A DNA stretch of 19,881 nucleotides from Aliarcobacter butzleri. GTDB lineage: Bacteria; Campylobacterota; Campylobacteria; Campylobacterales; Arcobacteraceae. Positions 389 through 17,874 of the stretch are shown here, piece by piece; positions within the stretch are counted from its first letter, which is position 1; each line of letters begins with the position of its first letter. Below the pieces are notes generated by a model that worked only from the letters and a program-made list of their open reading frames with translations, did not search any database and had not been told where the DNA came from. The stretch is taken from positions 1-19,881 of the forward strand of contig JAAYJJ010000186.1 in the NCBI GenBank assembly GCA_012522985.1, read 5' to 3'. The position numbers and the translations under genes are program-made.

Positions 389-1873
389 TTAAAACCCACT
401 TGTTTGAACAAAGTATGATATATGTTCAAGTAGTGGATTGATAAAGAAAATAGCTAAAATTGTAACTAAAGCTGATACTCCGATTACAGTTTTTAGTGTA
501 TTATTTGCATTTCCTAAAAATTCCACTTTATCATTTGTAACAGGATCTTTTAAGAACATATATACTACTAGTTTTAGATAATAGTAAGCCGCAATTGCAC
601 TATTTATAGCCATAATCAATGCCAAAATCAAATAATCAGCATTGATTGCAGCTCCTATTAGATACATTTTCCCCCAAAATATTGAAAAAGGAGGAACTCC
701 AGCAAGGCTTAACATAAAAAGTCCCATAATCGATGCAGTTACAGGTGATTTTTTAACCAAACCAGAGAATTTTTCAAATGGATGATCTGATTCAAATCCT
801 TCAAGTTTCTTTTGTCTATGTACCCAAAGCATAGAAAAAGCACCAAGATTTGTAAATAAAAATAGTATCCAATATAAAAACAGCCCTTGTGTAGCTTGAG
901 TAGTGCCTAGTAGTATAGCAACCATAACAAAACCAGCATGAGAAATAGAGCTATATGCTAACATTCTTTTTATATCAGTTTGTACTAAGGCTATCATATT
1001 TGGTAGAGTCATAGTAATAACTACTGTAGCATAAAGTACCATCTCAACCCAAAAAATCTCTGCGTTTACAAATATAGTAAAAAATCTTAGAGCAACTACA
1101 AAAGCAGCTAATTTAGGTACTACAGACATATATCCAGCCATTGCTGCACTTGAGCCTTCATAAACATCTGGTGCCCATATATGAAATGGAACCAATGAGA
1201 GTTTAAATCCAAGTGCAACAAATACAAATATTACACCCAAAAGTACTGGTAAAAATGGCTCAAAGTTATTTTCAACTAAAATAGCATTGATTTGAGATAT
1301 CTCCATACTTCCAGTTACAGCATAAAATATCATAATACCAAAAGCAAAACATCCAGCTGCTAAAGCACCCATTGTAAAATACTTAATAGCTGCTTCAAGA
1401 GATTTTTCACGGTTGTGCATTGCAATAATAGTATATAGTGCCATAGAAGCAGTCTCTAATCCTACAAATATAAGTATAAGATTATCACTACTTACCATAA
1501 ACTGAAATCCAGCTACCATAAATAAAAATAGTGAAAAATACTCTGGATATCTATATTCATGAAATCTTTGTTGAGAAAGAGCCAACAATATAAATAGCCC
1601 TGAAGCTATAATAATAATCAACTGAGCTAAAATCGATATACCATCTACAAGCATTAGATCAAAAAAGCCTTTTGTTGCTCCACTATAGCCTAGTAATACA
1701 CCTAAATCAACTATTAAAAATAAAATAGTTAGCATTACATAAAGAGATTTATGTAAGTTTCTATTTACCAAATCAATACATAAGATTATTAAAGCACCCA
1801 CAACTGCTACTAGCATAGGGGCTAGAGATTTTAGATTTAGACTTGCTAAATCTACTGAGATTGGATCTATCAT
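389..1873 (-). CDS. nuoN: Complex I membrane subunit NuoN
   Basis: NuoN (ND2 type) is one of three antiporter-like subunits of complex I, embedded in the cytoplasmic membrane and coupling quinone reduction to H+ translocation. The 494-residue protein is hydrophobic throughout, as expected for about 14 transmembrane helices. Visible landmarks are the helix with conserved Glu140 ([13 protein letters not shown]), the broken-helix region around [20 protein letters not shown] with Lys224, and Lys254 in SVVPKLAAF; these are the acid/base residues of the proton channel in this family. The ATG overlaps the nuoM stop by one base (TAATG), which suggests translational coupling. It is the last gene of the operon, ending 3 nt from the convergent truA stop. 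Length and residues look normal. Confidence 0.96.
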
Positions 1874-3399
1874 TATTCTTCCTCCCCTATTGAATTAACT
1901 TGTGCAAGAGTCTCTTTTGCGTTTGGAGTTATTGATTTTCCATACATTGTTTGAACAAGTTGTTTTACACTTGCATCTACTGGTTCTAATATAGGTTTTG
2001 GATAAACCCCAAAGAAAACAACCAATGCCACTAGTGGCACTAAAGCAACCAATTCTCTACCTTTTACATCAACTAGTGTTTTATTATTTTCATTGTTTAG
2101 TGGACCAAAAAATACCTTTTTGTATAAAACAAGCATATATACAGCTCCTAGTATAATAGTAGTTCCAGCAAGTAGTGCCATAACTGGTGATACTCTAAAG
2201 AATCCTAATAAACTTAAAAATTCTCCAACAAAACCTATAGTCAAAGGTAATCCTACACTTGCCATAAGCATAATACCAAAAATTAGTGCATATTTTGGCA
2301 TAATAGATGCTATACCACCAAACTCTGCTATCATTTTGGTATGTCTTCTATCATAAAGTACACCAACAAGCATAAACAGTGCACCAGAGACTATACCGTG
2401 GCTAATCATTAAAAATATAGATCCACCAATACCCTCAACATTTAGTGCAAAAGTTCCAAGAATAATAACACCCATATGTGAAACAGAACTATATGCTATA
2501 ACTTGCTTCATATCTTCTTGTGCATAAGCTACCATTGCCGTATAGATAATAGCTATAAGTCCCAATGTTGCCATAGGTATCATCATAGCTACACTAGCAT
2601 CAGGAAAAAGAGGTAATGAAAATCTAATAAAACCATAAGTTCCCATTTTTAGTAAAACAGCTGCTAATATAACAGAACCTATTGTAGGTGCTTGTCCATG
2701 AGCATAAGGTAACCACGTATGAAATGGAATCATAGGAACTTTGATAGCAAATCCAGCAAAAAACGCTATAAAAAGCCATAATTGCATATTGTATGGTAAA
2801 AGTAACATATTCCAATCAGCTAGTGCAAAACTCCAACTTCCTGTAGTTGAATAATATACATAAGCAAGATATAACATACCAACAAGCATAATCAAGCTTC
2901 CAAAAAATGTATATAAAAAGAACTTAACAGAAGCATAGATTCTTAGGTTTCCACCCCATGCACCTATGATATAAAGCATTGGTACAAGTGATAGCTCCCA
3001 AAATAGGTAGAAGATTATAGCATCAAGTGCTACAAATACACCAACCATAGTCATCTCTAAAAATAGTACCGTAATAAGCATATTTTTAAGATCTTTTGTT
3101 TCTGTAAGCCCAATAACCGCTATCATAGTCATAAATGTAGTCATTATAACTAAAAATAGTGAAATTCCATCAACGCCTAGATTATAAGCTATTCCATATT
3201 CCGCAATTACAGGAACAAACTCCATAAATTGCATACCACTATTTGTGCTATCAAAAGAGTACCACAAAACACAGCTTAAAAAGAACTCTATAGCTGTAAC
3301 AGTTATAGCATACATTCTAATAGAGTCTTTATTTACTATAAAGCCCATTGCTGCTGCAACTGCTGGAAAGAATATTAATATCGATAAAATGTATTCCAT
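1873..3399 (-). CDS. nuoM: Complex I membrane subunit NuoM
   Basis: NuoM (ND4 type) is an antiporter-like proton-pumping subunit in the membrane arm. With the ATG at 3399 the protein has 508 residues. The essential Glu135 ([13 protein letters not shown]), Lys220 ([15 protein letters not shown]) and Lys251 ([10 protein letters not shown]) are all in place. A TTG in frame one codon earlier (3402) is less likely: the AAGGGG Shine-Dalgarno at 3411-3406 lies 6 nt from the ATG but only 3 nt from the TTG. The Shine-Dalgarno overlaps the nuoL stop codon. The C-terminal tail after the last helix is short and acidic (ending GEEE). Its stop overlaps the nuoN start by one base. Confidence 0.96.
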
Positions 3400-3409
3400 C
3401 AATTACCCC

Positions 3410-5338
3410 TTAATTGTTTGATACCAGCAGTATCGCCAAAATTAATAATACAAGCAAACCAAAAGCCATCCATCTTAAAGCAGTGGATAGGTTTCTTGTT
3501 TGCATAACTCTACTTTCATTACCTGTAGTATAGATAGTTTTTGCAATAGCATCTACAATAGTATCAACTATTTTTAAATCTATCTCTTTCCAGCTAAATC
3601 TTGATATTGCAAGATATGGTTTAAGAACTACTTTTTCAAAAAATAGTGGCATATAGTATTGATTTGCTAGAAGTTTATAGCAAAATCTATTTTTTAGAGC
3701 TTCCCCAAAATATGCCTCATCTTTTTTGTGTTTAAATACAGCAAATCCAATACCAACTAAAACAATAGCAGTAGTTACAATAATAAGCATCCAAAGTGTT
3801 GCATTATCAACATGAACATTTAATGGAGGTAAGATACTTGTAACCATATTTGTAAATCCTGCTTGAGTCCAACCAGCAACTATAGATAGTATAGCAAGAG
3901 GTGCCATAGCAGCTATTACAAAACCATAAGTTTCATGAGGATGGTATCCATATTCATGATATTTTTCTTTACCAAAAAATACATACATAATAAGTCTAAA
4001 GCTATAAAATGCTGTTAATCCCGCAGTTATCCATAAAACACTCCAGATGATATATGAACCACTACCAAATGCAACTTCAAGAATTAAGTCTTTTGAGAAA
4101 AACCCAGCAAAAGGAAAAATACCAGCTAGTGCAATAGATGCTAGTATCATAATAAGCCCTGTTCTTGGCATATGTTTATATAATCCACCCATTTTTTTGA
4201 TATTAATCTCATCATTCATAGCATGCATTACATTTCCTGCACCCAAAAATAGAACTGATTTGAAAAATGCGTGAGTTGCTAAGTGAAAAAGTGCTACCCA
4301 ATAAGCTCCAAGTCCAGCAGCAACAAACATATATCCTAGTTGAGATAGAGTTGAAAATGCAATAATCTTTTTCATATTTGTAGCTACTAGTGCTTGAGAA
4401 GCTGCAAACATAGCAACAAAAGCTCCAAGTCCAGCTATAAATGCACCAACTTCAGGAACAACTGTATAGATCTCATTTGCTCTAATAACCAAATAAACCC
4501 CAGCTGTAACCATCGTAGCAGCATGAATAAGTGCTGAAACTGGTGTTGGACCTTCCATCGCATTTGCAAGCCATTGATTAAATGGAAATTGAGCTGATTT
4601 ACCCATAGCACCAATAAATAAAAATATTGCAATAGCAACAACTGTTGATGTATTTAAGCTAGAAATATTTGCAAAAACTTCATCATATTGTAAAGAGCCT
4701 AAGTTCCAATAGATCAAAAACATACCAACAAGCATAGCAAGGTCAGCAACTCTATTTGTTATAAATGCCTCATTTGCAGCAAATGCTGGAGATATAGATG
4801 AGTGAGGTGAAAGAGTTGAAAATGGTGAGTTATAAAGATCTTTTACCAAAGGTTTATCTTCTTTATGGTACCAAAATCCTATTAGCAACCATGAACATAG
4901 TCCAACACCTTCCCAACCTATAAATAGCCCAGCAAAGTTATCACTCATAACCAAAATCATCATAGAAAAAACAAAAGCTGATAGATATGAGAAAAATCTA
5001 TTAAAACTCTTATCACTATCCATATAACCTATAGAGTGGATATGAACCATTGTTGAAACTATTGTTACAACTACCATCATAGTTGCACTTACTTGATCAA
5101 CAACAAAGCCAAATGGAATATTAAGATTACCTATAACTATCCAATCTAACATCCTAACATGAACAACATTACCTGTAATTACCCAAGAAAGTAGTACTAG
5201 CGATGCGATCATCGATAAACCTAACATAGCTGAAGTGAAAAGTCCAGTTATTAGTTTTTTTGGATAATTTGCAAAAAAAGCAGCAAATATTGATCCAACA
5301 AGTGGAGCAAAAAGTGCTATATATAACAGATTTTCCAT
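3410..5338 (-). CDS. nuoL: Complex I membrane subunit NuoL
   Basis: NuoL (ND5 type) is the distal antiporter-like subunit, which also carries the long lateral helix along the membrane arm. The protein is 642 residues, within the family range. Landmarks are Glu143 in FIGWEGVGLCSWLLIGFWY, the FPFNQWLANAMEGPTPVSALIHAATMVTAG core, and a hydrophobic C-terminal anchor. Between the FWY helix and the AFITNRVADL helix there is a polar loop of about 20 residues (roughly 166-187, with PFSTLSPHSSISP) that is longer than the equivalent in the E. coli protein. The Shine-Dalgarno (GGAGG) is encoded by the last codons of nuoK, 3 nt before the ATG-proximal spacer. The stop is 10 nt from the nuoM ATG. Confidence 0.96.
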   Translation of the reverse strand: MENLLYIALFAPLVGSIFAAFFANYPKKLITGLFTSAMLGLSMIASLVLLSWVITGNVVHVRMLDWIVIGNLNIPFGFVVDQVSATMMVVVTIVSTMVHIHSIGYMDSDKSFNRFFSYLSAFVFSMMILVMSDNFAGLFIGWEGVGLCSWLLIGFWYHKEDKPLVKDLYNSPFSTLSPHSSISPAFAANEAFITNRVADLAMLVGMFLIYWNLGSLQYDEVFANISSLNTSTVVAIAIFLFIGAMGKSAQFPFNQWLANAMEGPTPVSALIHAATMVTAGVYLVIRANEIYTVVPEVGAFIAGLGAFVAMFAASQALVATNMKKIIAFSTLSQLGYMFVAAGLGAYWVALFHLATHAFFKSVLFLGAGNVMHAMNDEINIKKMGGLYKHMPRTGLIMILASIALAGIFPFAGFFSKDLILEVAFGSGSYIIWSVLWITAGLTAFYSFRLIMYVFFGKEKYHEYGYHPHETYGFVIAAMAPLAILSIVAGWTQAGFTNMVTSILPPLNVHVDNATLWMLIIVTTAIVLVGIGFAVFKHKKDEAYFGEALKNRFCYKLLANQYYMPLFFEKVVLKPYLAISRFSWKEIDLKIVDTIVDAIAKTIYTTGNESRVMQTRNLSTALRWMAFGLLVLLILAILLVSNN

Positions 5339-5341
5339 AAA

Positions 5342-5641
5342 TCAGCCTCCCATACTTTGTAGATTATCTAGACTTAGTGAGTTTTTTCTTTTATAAGTCA
5401 TTATAAGTAAACCTAAGCCAATAGCTACCTCACTAGCGGCAACTGCTATAATAAAAAATGCAAACATTTGACCATCTAAGTCACCATGAAATTTTGAAAT
5501 AGCTGCTAAACCAACATTGACGGCATTTAACATAATCTCAGATGCAAAAAATAGCATTAAAAGGTTTTTTCTTCTAATAACACCGATAAGCCCAATACAA
5601 AAAAGTATAGAACTAAGAATTAAATAGTCATTTAACATCAT
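5342..5641 (-). CDS. nuoK: Complex I membrane subunit NuoK
   Basis: NuoK (ND4L type) is a small three-helix subunit linking the quinone site region to the antiporter subunits. The protein is 99 residues, with the two buried glutamates of the family at Glu35 (FFASEIMLNAVN) and Glu71 (AVAASEVAIGLG). Two consecutive ATG codons begin the frame; the first (5641) forms an ATGA overlap with the nuoJ stop, a typical coupled start, and the second (5638) cannot be excluded. The last codons (Met-Gly-Gly) double as the Shine-Dalgarno of nuoL. Confidence 0.96.
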   Translation of the reverse strand: MMLNDYLILSSILFCIGLIGVIRRKNLLMLFFASEIMLNAVNVGLAAISKFHGDLDGQMFAFFIIAVAASEVAIGLGLLIMTYKRKNSLSLDNLQSMGG

Positions 5642-6216
5642 TTTTTATCCTTTGTAATATCAGCAGAAGAGCTAAGTTTATCTATCTCATCTTCACTCAT
5701 TTGAGTAATAGAGATATCCATTTTTTTACCTGCTAAGATTACTCCACCTATCATAGCTACCAAAAGCATAACAGCAGCTAACTCAAATGGAACAAGATAT
5801 TTAGTAAATAGTACAATACCTACTTCTTTTACATTGTTTCCATACTCCATAGAGATAGGATGAGATACTAAAATATTATTACTTACTATTGGAGCAGTTA
5901 GTATAACAACTACTAATAGGGCAATTCCACCACTTAGAATAAAAACCAATCTAGGGTTTTTGATATCTTCTTTTACTTCAGCTATTGTGTCAAAAAACAT
6001 CATACCAAAAGCATATAGTGCCATAACAGCACCTGTATAAACCACTATTTGAACAACACCCAAAAACTCTGCATCTAATAAAAAGTAAAATGCTGAAATA
6101 AATATCATCCCAGCAGCCAACGAGCTAAGAGCATATAGAGCATTGTTTGTTAGAACTGTTGTACAAAACATTGCAATAGTTAAAAATGCAAATAAATAAA
6201 AAGCTACTATTTCCAT
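5638..6216 (-). CDS. nuoJ: Complex I membrane subunit NuoJ
   Basis: NuoJ (ND6 type) is a membrane subunit whose third helix is part of the conformational coupling path between the quinone site and the pumps. The 192-residue protein shows the family's conserved helix QIVVYTGAVMALYAFGMM at about 56-73, including the pi-bulge region, and about five hydrophobic segments. The C-terminal tail is hydrophilic and lysine/aspartate rich. An AAGGAGAGG Shine-Dalgarno immediately follows the nuoI stop. The stop codon overlaps the nuoK start (ATGA). Confidence 0.95.
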   Translation of the reverse strand: MEIVAFYLFAFLTIAMFCTTVLTNNALYALSSLAAGMIFISAFYFLLDAEFLGVVQIVVYTGAVMALYAFGMMFFDTIAEVKEDIKNPRLVFILSGGIALLVVVILTAPIVSNNILVSHPISMEYGNNVKEVGIVLFTKYLVPFELAAVMLLVAMIGGVILAGKKMDISITQMSEDEIDKLSSSADITKDKK

Positions 6217-6225
6217 CGCCTCTCC

Positions 6226-6855
6226 TTAATATGCTAAAGGTGTTTTTTTGATCTTCTCATCAGCATCATCTGATGGTGCACCAAATCCACTAAATTCTTG
6301 TTGATCTTTTAGGAAATCAAGTGGAGTTAGAAGATCATCTTTTAGTACAAAATGAGCTCTTTGCTCACTTGCATTTTCATATCTTCCTCCATGAACAATA
6401 GCAAGTTCAGGACAGACTTCAGCACAATATCCACAAAATATACATCTACCTAAATTGATAGTATATTCAGTTACCTCTTTTCTTGATTTTTCATCTATTT
6501 TTGTATCAAGTCTTATACAGTTAGCTATACAGATCTTTTCACAAAGTCCACATCCAATACATCTATTGTTCCCACTTTCTAAAAGAGCTAGTAGTTTATG
6601 TACTGCTCTATATCTTGGGCTAACTGGAAGTTTTTCCATAGGGTATTTGATAGTATGCATATCATTTTTAAATAGGGCATCAACCATATTTTTAAATGTA
6701 ATCTTCAATCCCCCAAAAAGTTCAGTTTTGACTGTTCTACTCATAACTTGAGTAAACTCTTGCCATCTATTATCAGGATATTTTCCGTCATTAACGGTTA
6801 TATATCCATCTGATTTTGGGATATCATTGTTTACTTGTTTGATTTGTTCGTTCAT
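6226..6855 (-). CDS. nuoI: Complex I Fe-S subunit NuoI (two 4Fe-4S clusters)
   Basis: NuoI (TYKY/Nqo9) is a peripheral arm protein at the membrane interface that carries clusters N6a and N6b and passes electrons to NuoB. In the 209-residue protein, one ferredoxin motif uses Cys99, Cys102, Cys105 and Cys109, and the second uses Cys138, Cys141, Cys144 and Cys148 followed by Pro. The first motif has Ile instead of the usual Pro after its fourth cysteine and an extra Cys113. An N-terminal segment of about 40 hydrophilic residues precedes the amphipathic region, longer than in minimal NuoI proteins. AGGAG lies 6 nt before the ATG and overlaps the nuoH TAG stop. Confidence 0.96.
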   Translation of the reverse strand: MNEQIKQVNNDIPKSDGYITVNDGKYPDNRWQEFTQVMSRTVKTELFGGLKITFKNMVDALFKNDMHTIKYPMEKLPVSPRYRAVHKLLALLESGNNRCIGCGLCEKICIANCIRLDTKIDEKSRKEVTEYTINLGRCIFCGYCAEVCPELAIVHGGRYENASEQRAHFVLKDDLLTPLDFLKDQQEFSGFGAPSDDADEKIKKTPLAY

Positions 6856-6863
6856 GAATTCTC

Positions 6864-7856
6864 CTACAACATAATTACTAAGCCTGTAATTATAATATTA
6901 ATTACAGCTATTGGCATTAATACTTTCCAACACAACCACATAAGTTGGTCTGGTCTAATATGAGGCCATGATGCTCTTGTCCAAAGGAAGAAAAATATTA
7001 AAAACATAACTTTTAATATAATAGCAATTCCTCCAGGAATAAACCAAAGATCATTAAAGCCACCCATAAAAATAAGTGCTACTAGAAATGATACTGTAAA
7101 AAGGTTTGCATACTCACCTATAAAAAACATACCCCATCTCATACCAGAATATTCAGTTGCATATCCAGCAATAAGCTCTGCTTCATGCTCTAGTAAGTCA
7201 AAAGGTGTTCTATTGGTTTCAGCAAAACCAGCTATCAAAAATAGAATAAATGCCACAGGTTGAGTAAAAAGTAACCAATCAAATATACCACCACTTTGGT
7301 AGTTGTTGATATCTATTAAAGATAGACTTCCTACTAACATCAAAGGAGCAAGTATAGAAAGTCCTGTAACTATCTCATAACTTAAAAGTTGAATAGTTGT
7401 TCTAGCTCCTCCTAGCAATGCCCATTTATTGCCACTTGCCATACCTGCTAGAAGTGGTCCATAAAGTCCAGTTGCCATAACACCCAAAACAAATAGTAAA
7501 CCTATATTGATATCACTTATAATAGGAGTAACAGTATATCCACCTATATTAAATGATGGTATAAATGGAACGGCACTCATAGCTATAAAAGCAGTTGCCG
7601 CTGTTATAACTGGTGCTATCATAAAAATAGGCTTATTTGCATTTTGTGGTACAAAATCCTCTTTTGTAAAGAGTTTTATACCATCAGCTAAGATCTGTAA
7701 AACTCCAGCAGGTCCTACATGCACAGGTCCTAATCTTCTTTGCATAAAAGCTAATATCTTTCTTTCTATATAAGTTGTAAATCCAGCTATTGCAGAAAAA
7801 ATCAGTAATACAACCAAAACTTTGATTATAGTTTCAAGAAAATATATTGGATCCAT
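6864..7856 (-). CDS. nuoH: Complex I membrane subunit NuoH
   Basis: NuoH (ND1 type) anchors the peripheral arm to the membrane and forms most of the quinone-binding tunnel. The 330-residue protein is hydrophobic, with the family's conserved ERKILAFMQRRLGP (31-44) and the acidic loop ETNRTPFDLLEHEAEL (213-228) followed by GYATEYSGMRWGMFF, which line the quinone chamber and the putative proton path. Its Shine-Dalgarno (GAGG) overlaps the stop of the preceding nuoG2 3' fragment. Nothing abnormal is seen. Confidence 0.96.
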   Translation of the reverse strand: MDPIYFLETIIKVLVVLLIFSAIAGFTTYIERKILAFMQRRLGPVHVGPAGVLQILADGIKLFTKEDFVPQNANKPIFMIAPVITAATAFIAMSAVPFIPSFNIGGYTVTPIISDINIGLLFVLGVMATGLYGPLLAGMASGNKWALLGGARTTIQLLSYEIVTGLSILAPLMLVGSLSLIDINNYQSGGIFDWLLFTQPVAFILFLIAGFAETNRTPFDLLEHEAELIAGYATEYSGMRWGMFFIGEYANLFTVSFLVALIFMGGFNDLWFIPGGIAIILKVMFLIFFFLWTRASWPHIRPDQLMWLCWKVLMPIAVINIIITGLVIML

Positions 7857-8117: not shown

Positions 8118-10313
8118 TTAATTGAACTGATTGATAGGATTTGCTTGATATATAAGCTCACCTTCAAGTTGAGTATATTCAATATTTTCTACTTTATTAT
8201 TATAGCTTATATCACTTACAGAAAGTAAATATCCTCTATTTTCTTTGAAATCATTTGAAAAATAGTTACTTAATGAGTCAAATTCTATACTTTTGTACCC
8301 TTTTTCTTTAGGTAGCAATGAAGTATAATCAACAGTAAACTCCTCTTCAAGTCCTAAGGCTCTTGCTATGTCGTTTAGAGTATAGCCATGATAAGCCAAT
8401 GCTGCATTGGTTGGAACTACTCTTTTATCTATATTTGTAAATGTTCCTTCTTGTTGAAGAAGTGGTGGCATATCCATATCTCCATCACCCAAAGCACTTA
8501 TAGTATAATCTCCGCTTCTATTATAACCAATAGTATAAATACCTGTTGTATCATCAAGTTCACAGATTAAACTAACACCTAGAGTATTTGTTCTTGTAGG
8601 TATAATAACTACTTTAAACTCTGTATATCTTTGGATAAGTCCACTAAGATGAGCTAGGTTCTTGCTTCTTGGGTGGTTGATAAGATCTTCACCTATTATT
8701 AGGCTAAAACTATCTTTTTTATCAAGCATAGAGTTTATAGTCTCTAGTAAGCTCTCATCAGCTCCTATTATATCAAGTAGTTTAGTGTATTGATACTCAA
8801 CAGTGGTTTCTACCTTTTTAGGAACAAGCTTTTCTACCTCTTTTTCTTCACCAGTTTGTGGATCTACAACTTTTTCTTTAATGCTCTCTTTTATAGTCTC
8901 AACAGTAGTTTTAGATCTTATCTCTTTATGTGATGCTAAATAATCACTTATTTCTTTTGGTAAGTCTTTACCAAAAAGATCTAAGATTAGGTATAAAATA
9001 GCCTCTTCGCTCATAGGATTATTTGCTATAGTCTCTATAGTTTTACCTTTTTTACCAAAGTTTTCTACAGTTACATCACCTAGTGGATGGAAGTATAGCC
9101 CTGCACCTTTGTTTAGACTAATAGAGTTATTAAATGCAAATCTTATGCTAGGTGCATCTGATTTGAAATAGCTTCCTACACTTATAACAAAGTTACTATT
9201 ATGAATATCTTGTAAACTACCATTATATAGGCTCTTACCACTAGTTTGAGCAAACTCGTTTAAAAAACTCTTATATCTTTTTGCATCGTTGTTTATAAGC
9301 TTATATCCAAACTTTTCTTTTAGTTTTTGTAAAATAAGTGCTTCTTCGTTTGTAATATATGATCCAAAACTTATAGTGTCAGCTTGTTTAAATGCTTCTA
9401 TGGTTTTTGCAAATTTTTCTTCATCTTTACTTGAATCAAGTGCATAATCAAAAGCAAATCTAGCTGCACCACTTAGGGATACATAGTGTGAATCATTTGT
9501 AACTCTATAGATTTTATGTGATTTATTGTTTATAATGCTATCATGTTTTGTTTCATAATAAAGCAAACTACAATCACTACTATGTGGGTTTGATGCTGGT
9601 ACTCTTGTAAGTTCCCAAGCATTTGATTTGTATTGAAAATCACTACTAACCAAAGCCCCAACAGGACAAACAGAGATACACTCTCCACAATCTATACATC
9701 TATCTTTATCAAATCCGATTAAAGATTTATTTAGCTTATTCCACATAGCATAAGCATCTTTTGGCATAGATTCTTTATATGACTTATCTAAATCCTCACC
9801 GCCTCTTTTAACAGTAGATAGAGCATTTGATCCTATCATATCTTTACATACAGTTACACACTTTTCACATACTATACATAAGCCTGGGTCATACTTCATA
9901 ACACCCCATGTAACAGCTGGTCTATCTATATCTTTAATAGCATAGTGTTGTTTATCTACACCCATATATAGTGTATAGTTTTGTAGTTCACACTCACCAC
10001 TTTGATCACATACACCACATTGTAATGGATGGTTTACATCATAAACTTCCATTATAGAGCGACGCTCTTTTTCTATATTATCAGTAGTTGTGGTAATATT
10101 CATACCATCTTTGACTTTTGCATTACAAGAATAGACTTGTTTCCCATCTGCTTCAACTAAGCAAAGCCTACAAGCTAGAGTTGGCGAACATCTACTAAGA
10201 TAACAGATAGCTGGTATAAAAATACCATTTGCTCTTGCTACATTTAGTATAAACTCCCCATCTTTTGCTTTTATGGTTTTACCATCAATCGTTAATGTTA
10301 TTAAATCACTCAT
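8118..10313 (-). CDS. nuoG: Complex I Fe-S subunit NuoG, paralogue 2 (C-terminally truncated by in-frame stop)
   Basis: This is the second of two tandem NuoG (75-kDa/Nqo3) proteins of the electron-input arm. The 731 residues contain 2Fe-2S ligands Cys37, Cys48, Cys51 and Cys63; the His95/Cys99/Cys102/Cys108 4Fe-4S motif; and a 2x4Fe-4S ferredoxin-like region with Cys146/149/152/156 and Cys206/209/212/216. A molybdopterin-oxidoreductase-like domain follows. Positions equivalent to the N7 cluster ligands are Asn242, Ser245, Cys248 and Ser281, so that cluster is probably absent. The linker between the two 4Fe-4S motifs is about 20 residues longer than in NuoG1. A very charged stretch at about 464-506 (rich in K, E and V) has no counterpart in NuoG1. 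The ATG overlaps the nuoG1 stop (ATGA). The frame ends at a TAA where NuoG1 has Glu (GAA), and homologous sequence continues beyond it; an uninterrupted gene would encode about 815 residues. Confidence 0.9.
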   Translation of the reverse strand: MSDLITLTIDGKTIKAKDGEFILNVARANGIFIPAICYLSRCSPTLACRLCLVEADGKQVYSCNAKVKDGMNITTTTDNIEKERRSIMEVYDVNHPLQCGVCDQSGECELQNYTLYMGVDKQHYAIKDIDRPAVTWGVMKYDPGLCIVCEKCVTVCKDMIGSNALSTVKRGGEDLDKSYKESMPKDAYAMWNKLNKSLIGFDKDRCIDCGECISVCPVGALVSSDFQYKSNAWELTRVPASNPHSSDCSLLYYETKHDSIINNKSHKIYRVTNDSHYVSLSGAARFAFDYALDSSKDEEKFAKTIEAFKQADTISFGSYITNEEALILQKLKEKFGYKLINNDAKRYKSFLNEFAQTSGKSLYNGSLQDIHNSNFVISVGSYFKSDAPSIRFAFNNSISLNKGAGLYFHPLGDVTVENFGKKGKTIETIANNPMSEEAILYLILDLFGKDLPKEISDYLASHKEIRSKTTVETIKESIKEKVVDPQTGEEKEVEKLVPKKVETTVEYQYTKLLDIIGADESLLETINSMLDKKDSFSLIIGEDLINHPRSKNLAHLSGLIQRYTEFKVVIIPTRTNTLGVSLICELDDTTGIYTIGYNRSGDYTISALGDGDMDMPPLLQQEGTFTNIDKRVVPTNAALAYHGYTLNDIARALGLEEEFTVDYTSLLPKEKGYKSIEFDSLSNYFSNDFKENRGYLLSVSDISYNNKVENIEYTQLEGELIYQANPINQFN

Positions 10314-12583
10314 TGTACATCAACCTTTTGAATTTTTACTTTTTTATACCTAAATCCTTTGAAAAGATCACTTCTTTTTTCAATATCATAAGTACTTATT
10401 AGTCCAATAGTTCCTTTTAAGTTATTATCTAACTTAAATACTTTTCTTATTGTACTATTATTAATATTAATAGCAATTTCATTGCCATCACTAATTTTAG
10501 CCGATCTAGCAAAAGAGTCACTTCCTCTTAAAAATGGATCTTTTGCTGCTAGTGTTGTTTTTGCAGTATATTCGTTAAATTGCTGCAAAGGATTATAGTT
10601 ATAAATAACACTTCCATCAAAGCTTTCAATATCTTCGATCTCTTTTATATCAAAACTTTGCTTAGTATCAAACAAATCAAGCCTATACCCTCTATAAGAT
10701 ACCCCACAATTATCATAATAATCATCCAAAGAGTCAAAAGCTATAGCCTTAAAACCACTCTCTTTTGGTAAATGTGGAGTATAGTTGATAGTATATTTTT
10801 GTTTAATATCTAAAAGAGTATTTGCTAAGTCATTTAAAGAATAACCTTTATATCTAATAGCAACATTTGTAGGAACTACCAATTTATCTATATTTGTAAA
10901 TGTTCCTTCTTGTTGGTTTAGTGCTGGTGTATGAAAATCACCACTACCACTAGAACTAATCGTATAATCCCCATAAGAGTTATAAGCTACTACATAATCC
11001 CCACCAAGATCATTGTCTAGATCACATATTAAACTAACACCTAGAGTATTTGTTTGTGATGGAACTATAAGGACTTTAAACTCTGAAAAACTTTGGAAAA
11101 GCCCTAGAAGTTTAGCTATATTTGCACTATTTGGATGTCTAAATAGATCTTCACCTACTATTATCATAGGGGATTTTTTTTGAATAAATCTTTTTTTAAT
11201 ATCATCTACTTCTTCTTCACCTAGGTTAGATTCAGCACTTATATAACCAAGATCAAGATCTTCAAGATAACTATTTACTTCATCATTTGAGCTTTTAACA
11301 AAGGCATTTACAAGCATTGCCAATACCCCATCTTCACTACCAGCTTCATATTTGATATATTTTGTATAGATAGCTTTTAGGGCATCATCCGCAATAGGGT
11401 GCATATAGAAGATTTGGGCTCTATTTTTTTTACTAGCTTGATTTAGTGCAAATTTAATCATTGGATTATCATAATTTACAAAACTACCTACTGTTATAAT
11501 AAAGTCTGATTTTTTAATATCCTCTAAAGAACCATTGTATAAAGAGCTATTAGATGTTAAGGTAAAGTTTTTTATAAAGTTTTTAAAACTTCTTGCATCT
11601 TCGTTGTATAGCTTAACACCAAGTTTTGATTTTAGTTTTTGTAAAATAAGAGCTTCTTCGTTTGTAATATAAGAATCAAACCTTATAGCATCACAGTTTT
11701 TAAGAGCTTTTATAGCCTCGTCAAACTCCTCTTTTGAAGAGATTTTTTTATTTTCAAAATCAAAAGCAAATCTTCCAGCACCACAAAGTGAAGAAAACTC
11801 AAAGTCATTTGTAACTCTTGTTATTTTTTCATCTCCAATTTGTAAGGTTCCATCGTGTTTAACCTCATATCTAAGGCTACATGCACTACTACAATGTGCA
11901 CAACTTGCTGGTATCTTAGAGCCTTCCCAAGCATTTGAGCTATATTTGTAACCATTTGATACCAAAGCCCCTACAGGACAAACAGAGATACACTCTCCAC
12001 ATTGTTGGCATTTGGAAAATCTTATATCTATTTCAGATTTATATCCACCAGGTTTTACATAAAGAGCATTTGAGCCTACTATCTCGTTACATGTTCTTAC
12101 ACATTTTTCGCATAATATACATAAATATGGATCATATCCTAAGATACCCCATTTTTTATTTCTTCTTTTTTGCTCTTTTGCATTAAACTCTTGAGAGCTA
12201 ACTTTAAACTCCAAAGTTTTGTTTTGTAGTTCACACTCTCCGCTTTTATCACATACACCACATTGTAAAGGGTGGTTTACATCATATAGTTTCATAATAT
12301 TTTGTCTATGATGAAAAAGCTCATTAGTATTTGTCTTAATATTTGAGCCATCAACAGCCTTTGCTTGACAACTAAGAACAAAACCATCATTACCCTCAAC
12401 TTCTACAACACACATTCTACAGCTTCCTATAGGTGAGACTTTGGAGAGATAACACATAGTAGGTATATAGATACTATTTCTTCTAGCTATTTGAAGTATG
12501 GTTTCACCAAAAGTACCTTTGCACTCTTTGCCATCTATAGTGATAGATAGTTGTTTTCCAAAATGTATAATTCTTTCACTCAT
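10310..12583 (-). CDS. nuoG: Complex I Fe-S subunit NuoG, paralogue 1
   Basis: NuoG1 carries the Fe-S chain between the flavin site and NuoI. I chose the ATG at 12583 (757 residues, MSERI...) because it forms an ATGA overlap with the preceding stop; a frame extension to 12619 only adds residues inside the upstream gene. 2Fe-2S ligands are Cys44, 55, 58 and 72. The His104/Cys108/Cys111/Cys117 motif follows, then Cys155/158/161/165 and Cys192/195/198/202 for two 4Fe-4S clusters. Cys228, Cys231, Cys235 and Cys267 match the N7 ligands of E. coli NuoG. The rest is a molybdopterin-oxidoreductase-like domain without evident cofactor function, ending with a strand-rich C-terminal domain (DNNLKGTIGLISTYD...) and a basic tail. 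It shares stretches of very high identity with NuoG2 (QQEGTFTNIDK, TNTLGVSLICDLD), so the two arose by duplication. Confidence 0.94.
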   Translation of the reverse strand: MSERIIHFGKQLSITIDGKECKGTFGETILQIARRNSIYIPTMCYLSKVSPIGSCRMCVVEVEGNDGFVLSCQAKAVDGSNIKTNTNELFHHRQNIMKLYDVNHPLQCGVCDKSGECELQNKTLEFKVSSQEFNAKEQKRRNKKWGILGYDPYLCILCEKCVRTCNEIVGSNALYVKPGGYKSEIDIRFSKCQQCGECISVCPVGALVSNGYKYSSNAWEGSKIPASCAHCSSACSLRYEVKHDGTLQIGDEKITRVTNDFEFSSLCGAGRFAFDFENKKISSKEEFDEAIKALKNCDAIRFDSYITNEEALILQKLKSKLGVKLYNEDARSFKNFIKNFTLTSNSSLYNGSLEDIKKSDFIITVGSFVNYDNPMIKFALNQASKKNRAQIFYMHPIADDALKAIYTKYIKYEAGSEDGVLAMLVNAFVKSSNDEVNSYLEDLDLGYISAESNLGEEEVDDIKKRFIQKKSPMIIVGEDLFRHPNSANIAKLLGLFQSFSEFKVLIVPSQTNTLGVSLICDLDNDLGGDYVVAYNSYGDYTISSSGSGDFHTPALNQQEGTFTNIDKLVVPTNVAIRYKGYSLNDLANTLLDIKQKYTINYTPHLPKESGFKAIAFDSLDDYYDNCGVSYRGYRLDLFDTKQSFDIKEIEDIESFDGSVIYNYNPLQQFNEYTAKTTLAAKDPFLRGSDSFARSAKISDGNEIAININNSTIRKVFKLDNNLKGTIGLISTYDIEKRSDLFKGFRYKKVKIQKVDVQ

Positions 12584-14586
12584 AGTGCCACCATCCCGAT
12601 GTAATAACATCTCATACATCTCTCAGCTTCCATTTGAGCCTCTTGTGAAGTTAATCCAAGATTTACTTCTAGGTTATTATCTTTTCTAATTTCAACTTCT
12701 AGCTTTTGGCTTTCTGCTCTAGGAACACCTTTCATCCAGCCTTTGATAACTTCGTTTTTATTATAAACTCCAAGTTTTCTAGTGTGATCTTCCATAATTT
12801 CATCATCTGTTAAAGAGACTTTTTTATCATATATATATCTACTTATTACACTAGCTACTCTTTTTGCTTGACCTACAGCATTTACTATAGTCATAGGACC
12901 ATATTCACAATCTCCTGCAGCAAAGAGTCCAGAACGATTTGTCATATAATCTTTTCCATTTGTTAAAAGAGTATTCCAAGAAGTTAGCTTTACTTCCCAT
13001 TCTGGTGGTAAAAGTTGTAAATCTGCACTTTGTGAAACAGCTGGTACTACATAATCACACTCTATTTCAAACTCTCCACCTTCAATCTTATCTAAAACAG
13101 GTCTTCCACCATCTGGATCTGGTTTTAGTTCATATTTATCAACTATAATTTTTGTTATCTTTTCACCATCATCAATAATTGTGTTTATAGCTGAATAAAA
13201 TATAAACTCAACTCCCTCTTCAACGGCTTCACTATACTCTTCTAGTGTAGTATTGTTTATAATAGTCTTCTCATCTCTTCTATAAAGCATTACAACTCTA
13301 CTAGCTCCAGCTCTAATAGAACATCTTACTACGTCCATAGAGGTAAATCCACCACCAACGCAAACAACAGTTTTGCCTTTTAGGTCTGTTGGTTTACCAA
13401 TACGATATTTTTCCCATAGATTTATCTGATCTAGCATATCTATAGCACCCCAATACCCTTGCATTTTAGGGTTTTCATTGCTACATCCTATTCTTTTGGA
13501 TAGTCTTGTACCAAAAGAAAGTAAGGTAGCATCATAGTTACTATCTAGCTCTTTTAGTTTATTGGCATCAACTCTACTATTTGTAAAAACACTTACTGTT
13601 GGCATAGAGGTAACTAGTTCGATATCTTTATTGTATCTATCTATTGGCATCCTATATTCTGGTACCCCAACAGCAACTTCACCACCAAGAACTGGTAAGT
13701 CTTCATAAATATCTACTTTAATTCCTTCTAATGCAAGATAATATGCAGCAGTTAGCCCCGCTGGACCTGCTCCAACAATAGCTACTTGTTTGCCATCATC
13801 TCGTGGTTTTTTTGGTTTTACTGGGTGAAACCACTCTAGATTGTGATCTGTTTCATAATCAGCACCTATTCTTTTTAGCTCCATAATAGATATAGCTGAA
13901 TCTAGATTTGTTCTTCTACAAGCTTTTTCACATGGATGTGGACAAACTCTACCACATGTATGAGCTAGAGGCATAGTTTGCCTAGTAGAAGATAGTGCTA
14001 AATCATACATACCATCTCTAACACCTTCTATATAAGCAGGTATATCAACATGAGCTGGACACATATCCATACAAGGAGCGGTGATATTTGCTATATATTT
14101 ATCACCATCACTATCATACCAAGGTGATTTTTGTTGATTTTTTATACACTCTAAAAACTCATCTTCAAAATATTTTAACATCCCAAGCAATGGAGTAGGG
14201 ACGGTTTTTCCTATTTCACATTTGCTTGTTTCTTGCATGGTAGAAGAGATCTCTTTTAGGTGAGCTATATCACTAAGAGTTCCTTCACCTCTACCTATTT
14301 TGTCAAAAATATCATATAGTATTCTTCCACCCCATCTCCCAGGAGCACATCTTCCACAAGCTTCTGAATACTCTTGGTATTGTCTAGCATAGTTTATAGC
14401 TAGTTTTACTATATCTACACTCTTATCAAAAAGTGCAAAACCATCCCATCCAACATAAGCTTTTGTTTGTGTTGAGTCATCATAAGCAAAGGGAAACTTA
14501 AAAGAGGTAGTTACGATATCTTCACCGCTTTTATTGCGGTTGTCTATCACTTCTCCTTGCCAATATGAAAAATATAGATTACTCAT
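12580..14586 (-). CDS. NuoF-position hybrid flavoprotein: NuoF 4Fe-4S-domain remnant fused to GltD-like FAD/NAD(P)H oxidoreductase
   Basis: This 668-residue protein sits where nuoF is expected but is not a normal NuoF. Residues about 45-145 resemble the C-terminal 4Fe-4S domain of NuoF (SEACGRCAPGRWGGR, then CEIG), with Cys77, Cys80 and Cys123, but the third ligand of the CxxCxxC motif is Gly83. Residues about 165-245 form a GltD/DPD-type Fe-S domain (Cys172, 176, 211, 215, 219, 223). A FAD motif GAGPAG is at 272-277 with GG at 301-302, a dinucleotide-binding GGGFTSMD at 411-418 followed by YRR at 435-437, and a second FAD motif GLFAAGDC at 553-560. The C-terminus has another Cys pair (CMRC, 657-660). 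The NuoF FMN/NADH domain is missing. By family knowledge the GltD-like part should oxidise NAD(P)H through FAD. I infer it is an alternative electron-input subunit feeding NuoG; the actual donor is unknown. It starts 3 nt after the nuoE-like stop. Confidence 0.88.
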   Translation of the reverse strand: MSNLYFSYWQGEVIDNRNKSGEDIVTTSFKFPFAYDDSTQTKAYVGWDGFALFDKSVDIVKLAINYARQYQEYSEACGRCAPGRWGGRILYDIFDKIGRGEGTLSDIAHLKEISSTMQETSKCEIGKTVPTPLLGMLKYFEDEFLECIKNQQKSPWYDSDGDKYIANITAPCMDMCPAHVDIPAYIEGVRDGMYDLALSSTRQTMPLAHTCGRVCPHPCEKACRRTNLDSAISIMELKRIGADYETDHNLEWFHPVKPKKPRDDGKQVAIVGAGPAGLTAAYYLALEGIKVDIYEDLPVLGGEVAVGVPEYRMPIDRYNKDIELVTSMPTVSVFTNSRVDANKLKELDSNYDATLLSFGTRLSKRIGCSNENPKMQGYWGAIDMLDQINLWEKYRIGKPTDLKGKTVVCVGGGFTSMDVVRCSIRAGASRVVMLYRRDEKTIINNTTLEEYSEAVEEGVEFIFYSAINTIIDDGEKITKIIVDKYELKPDPDGGRPVLDKIEGGEFEIECDYVVPAVSQSADLQLLPPEWEVKLTSWNTLLTNGKDYMTNRSGLFAAGDCEYGPMTIVNAVGQAKRVASVISRYIYDKKVSLTDDEIMEDHTRKLGVYNKNEVIKGWMKGVPRAESQKLEVEIRKDNNLEVNLGLTSQEAQMEAERCMRCYYIGMVAL

Positions 14587-14869: not shown

Positions 14870-16096
14870 TTACCTATCTATTTCACCAAAGACTATGTTT
14901 AAACTACCTATAATAGTTACAACATCGGCCAATTGGTGTCCTGGAAGTAAATCTTGTAATATCCCCGTATGCCAAAAGCTAGGAGCTCTTAGTTTGATTC
15001 TATATGGATATGGTGTTCCATCACTACATATATAGTATCCTAGTTCACCTTTTGGTGATTCTGTTGCTACATATACCTCACCAACAGGTGGTCTCATACC
15101 TTGAGTTACAAGTACAAAATGTTGCATTAAAGAGTAGTTTTGAGTCATAATTTGCTCTTTTGGAGCTGAGATATACTCTGGTGCATGAGCCATAAGCTCT
15201 GAACTTGTATCTTTGTACATAGTTATTAGTTGAGTTAGGATTTTTGCTGATTGTCTTATCTCTTCCATATAGCATAGATATCTACCATAACTATCACATG
15301 CATATGAAACAGGAACATCAAAATCAAGCTCAGGATAAAGCCCATAAGGCATCTCTTTTCTAAGATCCCATTTGACTCCACTACCTCTTAGTGTAATACC
15401 ACTACAGCCCCAACTTTTTGCCATCTCTTCAGAGATGATACCTACATTTTCAAGTCTCATTTTCCAGATTCTATTTTCTGTTAAAAGTCCTTCATACATA
15501 GCTACTTGAGGTACTACATGAGCTATAAATTTTTCTAAGCTATCTAACCAACCTTTTGGAAGATCAAGAGGAACTCCACCTATTCTTACAGCAGAGTGCG
15601 TAAGTCTAGCTCCACAATAATCCTCCATCAGATCCATAGCAAACTCTCTTTCTCTAAAGCAGTATAAAAATACAGACATTGCCCCAACATCAAGTGCATG
15701 AGTTGCAAGCCAAAAAAGGTGAGAGATGATTCTATTTAGCTCTACAAGCATAGTTCTTATAACTTCTGCTCTTCTTGGAGCTTCTATGCCTAAAAGTTTT
15801 TCAACAGCTAGAGCAAATCCATAGTTATTTGAAGTTGCTGCTATATAGTCCATTCTATCTGTTGTTGGCAAAAACTCATTGTAGATCATATTTTCAGCCA
15901 TTTTTTCCATACCACGGTGTAGATATCCTACATCAGGAACAGCTTTTATTACCTCTTCACCTTGAAGCTCTAGTATAAGCCTTAGTTGTCCGTGAGCTGA
16001 TGGATGTTGTGGACCAAAGTTTACTATCATAGTATTGTCTTCTCGTTCAAATGAGATATTTTCAAAGAACGGTTTTAGTTTATTTACATGTTGCAT
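14870..16096 (-). CDS. nuoD: Complex I subunit NuoD (49-kDa)
   Basis: NuoD forms, together with NuoB, the quinone-reducing site of complex I. The 408-residue protein is full length, with the conserved GPQHPSAHG loop at 28-36 (including the quinone-contacting His) and [11 protein letters not shown] at about 55-65. It ends with the strongly conserved [20 protein letters not shown]. It is derived from the large subunit of NiFe hydrogenases but lacks the metal-binding cysteines, as normal. It is a separate gene and not fused to nuoC. The ATG at 16096 has AAGGA 7-8 nt upstream, just after the nuoC TAA. Confidence 0.97.
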
Positions 16097-16105
16097 CTTT
16101 GATCC

Positions 16106-16930
16106 TTACTTTCTTTTATCTAAAACTTTTGATTCTTTTTCATCAAATTTAGTGATTAATCTTGCACCAAAAAGCTTGACACCATCTTCTTCTTGATATG
16201 CTAGTGGAGTATGCTCTGGTTCACCCTCTTTTTGGATATCAAATCCATAAGGAACTTCATGACCTAGTCTAGCAAATCTAGTAGTATCATATCTATCAAT
16301 AGCAGCAGAGTCTCTTATTTCAGCTCCTATGATATCACGAGCCTCTTTACCAAAGATCTTATCTACTTCATACCATTGTGCTGCTTCATCACCTTGAAGT
16401 GGATAGGTTTTTCTAAGAGGATGATCATACCAATCATCAGGCATAAGGATTCTTTTTGGATAAGGATGGTTTTTTAGTTTAATACCAAACATATCATACA
16501 TCTCCCTCTCAGCCCAATCAGCAGATCTAAAGATAGATTCAACAGATTCTATAGCTTCTCCTAGCTCTACAAAGCATTTAAGTCTCATTCTTTTATGCTT
16601 AGATGTAGATAACATCTCATAAAAAACCTCAAATCCACCTCTTGAAGAGATATAATCCAAGGCACTAAGCTCCATCAAAAAGTCATATCCAAGTTCAACC
16701 TTTGCAAACTTTATAATCTCTTTGTTTTTCTTTGCTTCCATAAAAACAACTAAATGTCCTCTTTGGATATAAGCATCTTCTATAGCAAAATTTGCTTTTA
16801 AAGCCTCTAAATCTTTAGCAAAAACTTCATCGTTTGATACATCACCTTTTGGAAGTTCTGGAGTTACATGAAACCTATCATTATAGTATGATTTTTTTTG
16901 AACATCACTTTTTGGAGTATATTTTCTCAT
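16106..16930 (-). CDS. nuoC: Complex I subunit NuoC (30-kDa)
   Basis: NuoC is a peripheral-arm structural subunit contacting NuoD, NuoB and NuoI, without a cofactor. The 274-residue protein shows the family signature at 140-180: [21 protein letters not shown] followed by [20 protein letters not shown] (quoted in two parts). There is a hydrophilic N-terminal extension of about 30 residues and a C-terminal tail of about 90 residues beyond the signature, ending in a basic stretch. Its ATG overlaps the nuoB TAA by one base. Assignment is firm. Confidence 0.96.
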
Positions 16931-17439
16931 TATACCAACCTTTTAGGCTTTTGTGATTTGAAAATCGAGCCTTGTCTAATTTTCTTTTGTAAAAGCATTA
17001 CTGCATATTGTAAAGTCTCAGGTCTAGGAGCACAACCAGGTAGATAGATATCCACAGGTACTACTCTATCAGCTCCTTGAACTGTTGCATAAGTGTTAAA
17101 CATACCACCAGTATTTGCACAGCTTCCCATGCTTATTACCCATTTGGGTTCAGGCATTTGATCATAAAGCCTTCTTAAAAACTCAGCATGTTTTTTGGTT
17201 AGAGTTCCAGCAATAACTAAAACATCAGATTGTCTAGGACTAGCTCTAAAGATAGTTCCAAATCTATCAAAGTCATATCTACTAGCACCAGTTGCCATCA
17301 TCTCAATAGCACAACAAGCAAGTCCATATGTCATAGGCCACAAAGAGTTACTTCTACCAAAATTTACTAGTTTATCAACCGCGGTTAGTGCAATAGGTGC
17401 ACCACCATTTGCTAAATAATTTACTTTATGCTGTGCCAT
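16930..17439 (-). CDS. nuoB: Complex I subunit NuoB (N2 cluster)
   Basis: NuoB (PSST/Nqo6) binds the terminal cluster N2, which reduces quinone. With the ATG at 17439 the protein has 169 residues. The four N2 ligands are Cys42 and Cys43 ([11 protein letters not shown]), Cys107 (SMGSC) and Cys136 ([10 protein letters not shown]). The alternative GTG at 17460 would add seven residues, but AAGGAG at 17452-17447 is positioned 7 nt before the ATG and would lie inside the longer frame, so the ATG is preferred. The gene therefore begins 19 nt inside nuoA. Its stop overlaps the nuoC start. Confidence 0.96.
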
Positions 17440-17810
17440 TGTAGTGCTCCTTTTCTCCACTCATATATAAATCCTATTGTTAGCAACAAGAGGAAGAAAA
17501 TCATTGCAACAAATCCAAACCACCCAAGAATTTTGAAGTTTATAGCCCAAGGAAACATAAATATTATCTCTACGTCAAATAATATAAAAAGTAACGCAAG
17601 CATATAAAACTGTGTTGAAATCTTATTTGGTTGCTTTGTAACTTCAGGTCCACACTCATATATAGTACACTTTAGTTTCTCTTCACTCAAACTTGAAAGC
17701 CTTCTACTAACAAACCTTGCAAGTGCTGTTGTAGCAATAAAAGCTACAAATGTGAGAACGAACATTACAAAAGCCCCAAAATACGGGTGTGCAAAATCCA
17801 TATGACTCAT
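17421..17810 (-). CDS. nuoA: Complex I membrane subunit NuoA
   Basis: NuoA (ND3 type) is a three-helix membrane subunit whose first loop contacts the quinone chamber. With the ATG at 17810 it has 129 residues. The loop carries the conserved YECG motif (51-54), the second helix has the acidic DVE motif (79-81), and the C-terminus has the typical EWRKGAL.W ending. An in-frame TTG at 17843 would add 11 residues but has no Shine-Dalgarno; the ATG has AAGGGG 5 nt upstream. It is the first gene of the operon, with a promoter-like region ahead of it. Confidence 0.96.
17447..17452 (-). promoter_or_regulatory. Shine-Dalgarno of nuoB, inside nuoA
   Basis: AAGGAG on the minus strand, 7 nt before the ATG at 17439, within the last codons of nuoA. 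It supports the 169-residue NuoB over the GTG-initiated form. Confidence 0.8.
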
Positions 17811-17815
17811 ATAAT

Positions 17816-17821
17816 CCCCTT
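17816..17821 (-). promoter_or_regulatory. Shine-Dalgarno of nuoA
   Basis: AAGGGG on the minus strand, 5 nt before the ATG at 17810. It decides between this ATG and the longer TTG start at 17843. Confidence 0.75.
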
Positions 17822-17874
17822 TTTTGATATATTTAAAAATCAAATTTTGTTTTGATTATGCAAAACTTTACTAA

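Follow-up and report, generated by a model that had tools for sequence, protein, structure and literature searches.

In Campylobacter and Helicobacter, the complex I operon is described as carrying nuoX and nuoY in place of nuoE and nuoF (review, PMC6682613), and Cj1574c, probably together with Cj1575c, is reported to mediate electron transfer from flavodoxin (PMC4178425). The NuoX homologue HP1264 of H. pylori, for which a nuclear magnetic resonance structure exists (2LXR), is reported to bind flavin mononucleotide (FMN) and to have no conserved cysteines (PMC6269979). Among the GltD-like flavoproteins, StnC of the Sporomusa ovata StnABC complex contains a flavin adenine dinucleotide (FAD) which oxidizes NADPH and was judged non-bifurcating by its authors; a lysine of StnC seems to coordinate the proximal cluster, where NfnB, a bifurcating GltD-like flavoprotein, has a glutamate (PMC10482914). 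We analysed a stretch of 19 881 nucleotides from Aliarcobacter butzleri (contig JAAYJJ010000186.1 of assembly GCA_012522985.1, hereafter the window), in which the nuoF position of a complete complex I operon encodes a 668-residue fusion of the NuoF C-terminal 4Fe-4S domain with a StnC-type GltD module. The fusion is probably an electron-input subunit linked to NADP(H).

A fusion protein at the nuoF position

The operon lies on the minus strand in the order nuoA–D, nuoX, fusion gene, nuoG1, nuoG2, nuoH–N (Table 1). The nuoE position is taken by nuoX, and the fusion gene is followed by two full-length nuoG genes, the products of which both exceed the cut-off of the NuoG model PRK08493. The replacement of NuoE by NuoX, typical of complex I in Campylobacterota, is found in the window as well; no NuoE family was matched by the NuoX protein in the Pfam search. 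A second typical feature, NuoY after NuoX, is absent from the window, where NuoX is followed by the fusion and then by full-length NuoG1.

The domain structure of the fusion had been predicted from the letters of the window as a NuoF 4Fe-4S domain joined to a complete GltD-like flavoprotein, and this is what the Pfam matches gave: PF10589 at residues 65–146, then Fer4_20, then PF07992. The amino-terminal region aligns with the NuoF profile (E 3.4e-20), and with nuoX directly upstream and nuoG1 next, the proposed placement at the complex I input position holds too. The fold search barely covers the NuoF-derived part, so that the identity of this part rests on sequence profiles. The FMN/NADH-binding domain PF01512 was not among the Pfam matches of the fusion at E values up to 1, and SLBB was not matched either. 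With canonical NuoF, the 51-kDa subunit, the fusion shares the operon position and the C-terminal 4Fe-4S domain, but it has neither the FMN/NADH domain nor an SLBB match, and one of its N3 cysteines is a glycine. Among the matches listed, the closest homologue with a genus name is from Arcobacter sp. FWKO B (85% identity).

The original prediction could have failed on a separate canonical nuoE/nuoF pair. None was found elsewhere in the genome of the window, which is 95.7% complete in 216 contigs; the NuoF FMN domain PF01512 had no match there, an absence which at this completeness and contig number is not absolute. The transhydrogenase PntB was not matched in this genome.

Table 1. Positions of complex I genes and of parts of the fusion protein in the window.
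Feature	Position	Strand	Remarks
Fusion subunit, 668 aa (NuoF C-terminal 4Fe-4S domain and StnC-type GltD module)	12580..14586	−	
NuoF-derived 4Fe-4S (N3) domain, aa 65–146; cluster C77, C80, C123	14149..14394	−	PF10589, E 3.4e-20, above cut-off
Gly83 codon (site of the third N3 cysteine of NuoF)	14338..14340	−	
Fer4_20 region, aa 169–248; C172, C176 (distal), C211, C215, C219, C223, K238 (proximal)	13843..14082	−	
FAD and NAD(P) Rossmann domains, aa 267–574; YRR at 435–437	12865..13788	−	PF07992
C-terminal C657-x2-C660, putative remaining ligands of the distal cluster by analogy with StnC-type chains	12607..12618	−	Collinear with StnC-type chains
nuoX, 89 aa	14590..14859	−	PF16514, E 1.9e-36; PDB 2lxr, E 7e-21
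nuoG1, 769 aa	10310..12619	−	Family keeps the Cys sets for N1b, N5, N4, N7
NuoG1 C-terminal half, about aa 346–767 (part retained as NuoY in the fusion-less loci examined)	10319..11584	−	
nuoG2, 731 aa	8118..10313	−	N1b, N5, 8Fe ferredoxin-like dicluster; N7 ligands absent in the window copy
nuoD, nuoC, nuoB, nuoA	14870..17843	−	NCBIfam models above cut-off
nuoH, nuoI, nuoJ, nuoK, nuoL, nuoM, nuoN	389..7856	−	NCBIfam models above cut-off

Cluster ligands and type of the flavin module

Conservation was read from a family alignment of 175 rows: the window, 120 listed proteins of at least 600 residues and 54 open reading frames (ORFs) from loci, which scored above 450 bits. Near-duplicates are included (window, P0001, L001) and the rows are not all independent; the aligned relatives from the length-filtered list are as little as about 49% identical to the window. 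Eleven cysteines over three cluster sites are conserved: those at 77, 80, 123, 172, 176, 211, 215, 219 and 223 in every row, and those at 657 and 660 in 174 rows, with a gap in the remaining one. K238, R312, Y435, R436 and R437 are likewise invariant.

The N3 cluster of NuoF is bound by four cysteines in the pattern CxxCxxC...C. In the fusion the third of these is Gly83, which is glycine in 175/175 rows and in 79 of the 80 ORFs of the named loci described below (gap in the other), while a homologue from Collinsella has a cysteine there. This makes a three-cysteine N3-like site, as judged from the alignments, invariant across the sampled members of the family. The site may be empty or may hold either a [3Fe-4S] cluster or a [4Fe-4S] cluster completed by a different ligand. 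The adjacent residue 84 is Arg in 160 rows and Lys in 15. Cys42 of NuoG2 was considered as a substitute ligand; it is present in all 70 NuoG2 rows, that of the window among them, but 17 of 20 single-NuoG rows from fusion-less genomes have it as well, so there is no association with the fusion and the candidate was dropped. The invariant glycine would also fit a structural relic, in which electron transfer ended when N3 lost a ligand. We consider this extremely unlikely, as the rows with this glycine retain, over the same span of identity, the remaining cluster cysteines and the nucleotide motifs, and the whole module is gone from the fusion-less loci that were examined.

For the flavin module, the StnC-type reference chains were 8oh5_C (StnABC) and the NfnABC chains 9bov_A and 9n5u_A. 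As in these, Fer4_20 precedes the FAD and NAD(P) Rossmann domains in the fusion. According to a hand count on the printed alignment, K238 corresponds to K170, R312 to R239 and I182 to C114 of StnC, and the NfnB chains 4ylf_B and 5jca_L have Glu at the position of K238. The fusion thus has the proximal-cluster lysine and the C-terminal CxxC of the StnC type, not the glutamate of the Nfn type, and in addition C211, which StnC does not have. StnC itself contains a NuoG domain instead of the NuoF domain and works beside a separate NuoF-type FMN subunit (PMC10482914, PMC7483475); the fusion has no FMN domain, and its partner is complex I. From the lysine, the CxxC and the YRR with which a strand of the NAD(P) fold ends, we infer that the module is of the NADPH type and non-bifurcating. 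Bifurcation had been suggested originally; the residue that is Glu in NfnB and Lys in StnC is Lys in all 175 rows, which argues against it. Entry of electrons from a nucleotide, suggested at the same time, remains plausible from the sequence.

A NADH-linked input is the nearest alternative. The GltD-like module would use NADH and would replace NuoEF as a conventional NADH dehydrogenase module, in keeping with the shared operon position, the presence of a nucleotide fold and the lack of another NuoF FMN domain among the matches in the genome. Residue 444, basic in most rows (Arg in 140, Lys in 8 of 175), is moreover Asn in the window. Yet the YRR is invariant and agrees with the three aligned StnC/NfnABC chains, and the closest chain of studied function uses NADPH (PMC10482914), which makes NADH as the donor rather unlikely. 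As a donor to the fusion, NADPH would be a better guess than either NADH or flavodoxin.

The same architecture occurs outside complex I. WP_195568673.1 of Collinsella aerofaciens, 32% identical to the fusion, has the Pfam order PF10589–Fer4_20–Pyr_redox_2, the C-terminal CxxC and a Lys at position 238. It differs by the cysteine at the Gly83 position and by its neighbour, a [FeFe] hydrogenase; on PRK12771 it scores 591.8 bits, whereas the fusion (365.7 bits) stays below the cut-off of 516. The combination of a NuoF 4Fe-4S domain with GltD is therefore not unique to complex I, and the fusion was not necessarily made for it. The beta subunit of the NADP-dependent formate dehydrogenase of Moorella thermoacetica is also described as having 4Fe-4S cluster-binding, ferredoxin-binding and NADP-binding domains (PMC5736913), in a formate dehydrogenase context; this comparison is by description. 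Could the fusion then be the beta subunit of a NADP-type formate dehydrogenase or of a hydrogenase which docks on complex I? Several homologues are named formate dehydrogenase beta subunit by JGI, two of them with (NADP+), and there is the Collinsella hydrogenase. Against this, no catalytic subunit of either enzyme was among the identified ORFs of the window, to which this search was confined, and the gene immediately upstream of the fusion is nuoX in 77 of 80 loci, the other three being cut by a contig edge. We regard this explanation as very unlikely.

Two further observations concern the fusion. Residues 630–660 resemble the N-terminus of NfnB; the pieces score only 7.1 and 3.2 bits, and this apparent circular permutation relative to NfnB is a suggestion. 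C409 and C422 of the NAD(P) fold (codons within 13321–13362) are present in all 175 Campylobacterota rows and are Val and Ser in Collinsella; they possibly serve redox regulation.

Occurrence of the fusion and the relationship of NuoY to NuoG1

A taxonomic search for the architecture had been proposed as a check. In a sample of 298 genomes of the phylum, a hand count gave 73 with a full-length fusion (match starting at residue 40 or earlier), and every listed one belongs to a single order. One more genome has a match limited to residues 254–666, and in seven the flavoprotein half (52–55% identity) lies within ORFs of 726–966 residues. Three of these seven were scanned; no domain is missing from them, and their NuoF and Fer4_20 parts are separated by an insertion. 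These insertion-bearing fusions come from one family code (L051 7688–9865, L053 8815–11625, L054 6873–9770). In a family sample, 22 of 101 genomes have the fusion (truncated at a contig end in one of them), and all 22 have NuoX. A NuoF FMN domain was not matched in 18 of these 22 and was present in all 64 genomes with NuoX but without the fusion. In the phylum sample this domain is missing in 58 of the 73 fusion genomes.

A contig scan returned at least 589 relatives. The best 80, our named loci, are all from Campylobacterota (Sulfurovum, Sulfurimonas, Sulfuricurvum, Nitratiruptor, Nitratifractor, Hydrogenimonas, Arcobacter, Helicobacter and unclassified relatives). In each of them nuo genes adjoin the fusion, with nuoX placed as stated above, and 19 separately fetched loci have the same gene order as far as each reaches. 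Within its phylum, the fusion gene is nothing unusual. In the metagenome-assembled genome B24_G6 (L072 4782–12289), the nuo genes end after nuoG1 and other genes follow; either nuoG2 to nuoN are elsewhere or the contig is chimeric.

Upstream of nuoA, the window contains a gene for an AAA ATPase (17992–19728, minus strand). A homologue is found at this place in 31 of the 80 named loci, many of which end short of it. The curated matches (IteA anti-phage ATPase, CDC48) are all far under cut-off, and the protein is possibly an assembly factor or an unrelated neighbour.

The replacement genes of Campylobacter and Helicobacter had been taken to be simply unrelated to the genes which they replace. 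This was not borne out for NuoY, although NuoX does not match NuoE. We compared 20 fusion-less loci with nuoX, hand-picked to span four family codes and not a random sample. In all 20, the gene after nuoX (234–350 residues) has the C-terminal half of NuoG1 as its best match (E 3e-6 to 4e-41), and their sole full NuoG is most similar to NuoG2. A profile comparison with ten NuoY proteins of the family of the window gave E 6e-62 and 42% identity for NuoG1, and 5e-22 and 19% for NuoG2. Flavodoxin-type (NuoXY) complex I shares NuoX and the rest of the operon with the fusion type; it differs in having neither the fusion nor the Fe-S half of NuoG1.

For a tree based on 245 shared columns, 79 sequences were used: 20 NuoG1 and 19 NuoG2 (selected from 77 and 69 rows, plus those of the window), all 20 single NuoG and all 20 NuoY. 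The tree separates NuoG1 plus NuoY from NuoG2 plus single NuoG with a bootstrap of 100. NuoY is scattered within NuoG1, with a minimum of three state changes, which suggests that NuoY arose by repeated loss; a single NuoY clade is rejected only marginally by the approximately unbiased (AU) test (p 0.047). The reverse course, in which NuoY is ancestral and NuoG1 was rebuilt from NuoG2, is ruled out by the N-termini of NuoG1, which form a clade of their own (bootstrap 100), so that the direction is truncation. Since NuoY corresponds to the NuoG1 half in 20/20 loci, the fusion type appears ancestral and not a repair of the flavodoxin type; flavodoxin-type complex I looks like the outcome of a reduction of the fusion type, which perhaps took place more than once.

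The NuoY of locus L161 is 88–94% identical to the best 120 proteins listed, the named ones of which are from H. pylori, and one of these is called ‘NADH dehydrogenase I subunit F nuoF’. In NCBIfam this H. pylori protein matches just the NuoG model, weakly (E 0.00056, far under cut-off), and it has no Pfam family at E 0.01. The UniRef name of the NuoY of Campylobacter armoricus (P0279) already reads ‘chain G-li...’. For the NuoY of L168, a protein from Campylobacter coli is listed at 94% identity. Scans of NuoY members gave no Fe-S domain. Two NuoY of the Campylobacter coli lineage, of about 240 residues (L167, 9775–10503; L168, 3070–3798), have 10–11 cysteines, the other 18 having 1–7; the Pfam scan of L168 NuoY gave no domain.

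The cysteine sets of the NuoG proteins are those which we take to bind N1b, N5, N4 and N7. NuoG1 retains the N1b, N5 and N4 ligands in at least 76 of the rows covered, and its N7 ligands in 69 to 76 of 77. NuoG2 has N1b, N5 and two full CxxCxxCxxxC motifs, a ferredoxin-like dicluster, in 69/69 rows, and N7 in 61 of 69; the NuoG2 of the window (8118–10313) belongs to those without N7 ligands. The single NuoG of the fusion-less loci has N1b, N5 and the dicluster in 20/20, with the N7 cysteines below the 85% reporting limit. Among the loci examined, none that lacks the Fe-S half of NuoG1 has the fusion, which suggests that the two formed one electron path and that the C-terminal half of NuoG1 is a scaffold.

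The dicluster bears on a further alternative, a crossover between flavodoxin or ferredoxin and NADP+. Electrons would enter at the FMN of NuoX or at the additional clusters of NuoG2, and the fusion would pass part of them to NADP+, possibly bifurcating or confurcating with quinone. Besides the dicluster, FMN binding as reported for HP1264 (PMC6269979), the flavodoxin gene in the genome of the window and the bifurcation by the GltD-like NfnB (PMC10482914) would be in line with it. However, the glutamate ligand of NfnB is a lysine in the fusion, and no NfnA-like second subunit is among the identified ORFs of the window. On balance this course is quite unlikely.

Proposed electron path and its meaning

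Considering the observed domains, operon, conserved residues and NuoY/NuoG1 homology as a whole, we think that the fusion is probably, though by no means certainly, the electron-input subunit of a NADP(H)-linked complex I, for which we infer cofactor, direction, path and docking. NADPH would reduce the FAD of the GltD-like module, which like that of StnC would be non-bifurcating and would deliver single electrons to a proximal [4Fe-4S] cluster (C215, C219, C223 with K238 or C211). From there they would pass to the distal cluster (C172, C176, C657, C660), to the N3-derived cluster with its three cysteines, and through NuoG to menaquinone, coupled to proton pumping. The proton-motive force could reverse the flow, and autotrophs would then make NADPH from quinol. 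For Nautilia, whose complex I is partial and has no nuoE, F, G or K, a reverse flow yielding NAD(P)H was proposed (PMC2628731). The fusion would have been lost jointly with the Fe-S half of NuoG1 in Helicobacter, Campylobacter and many Arcobacteraceae; the other half of NuoG1 would have been kept as NuoY, and flavodoxin would have become the electron source of the complex.

Several points weigh against a NADPH-linked input by this path. The missing N3 ligand could leave the site empty, or with a [3Fe-4S] cluster of unfavourable potential, and with C211 the ligands of the proximal cluster may all be cysteines. YRR occurs in the wider family and does not prove NADPH over NADH, residue 444 of the window is not basic, and the score of the fusion on PRK12771 (NF009410) falls short. 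At the level of genomes, 15 of the 73 fusion genomes of the phylum sample also have a match to the NuoF FMN domain, and the genome of the window has one flavodoxin gene. Finally, the role of two NuoG subunits is a gap in this reading: in a Campylobacterales metagenome-assembled genome (L121 3416–6680), fusion and NuoG1 are directly followed by nuoH with no NuoG2 between, so that one NuoG1-type NuoG can apparently serve alongside the fusion. Of the original prediction, the input position and the plausibility of a nucleotide-linked entry are supported, and the unrelated replacements and the bifurcation are not.

A more far-reaching proposal we make tentatively and with somewhat less than even confidence in it as one joint claim. 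Fusion-type complex I would be a distinct class, ancestral in Campylobacterales, a NADPH:menaquinone oxidoreductase with two NuoG and a three-cysteine N3, probably run in reverse for NADPH in sulphur- and hydrogen-oxidizing autotrophs; the flavodoxin type of Helicobacter and Campylobacter would have been derived from it more than once by deletion of the NADPH module and the NuoG1 Fe-S half, the NuoF of H. pylori being a stripped NuoG. We met no description of the fusion as complex I input, of the fixed loss of the N3 ligand or of NuoY as a NuoG1 remnant in the open-access literature, as far as its available text goes, and an earlier description is possible.

Complex I is usually defined by NADH, and a widespread NADP-type input would alter the account of the energy balance for Sulfurimonas, Sulfurovum and their relatives. 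These bacteria have carbon-fixing lifestyles, and reverse electron flow may have to supply the NADPH which they use to fix carbon. The relationship of NuoY to NuoG1 corrects database names (nuoF, hypothetical protein) and bears on how complex I of Campylobacter and Helicobacter takes up electrons without NuoE and NuoF. As NuoY is a former NuoG half with no Fe-S domain in the members scanned, electrons more likely enter the flavodoxin-type complex at the remaining NuoG and at NuoX.

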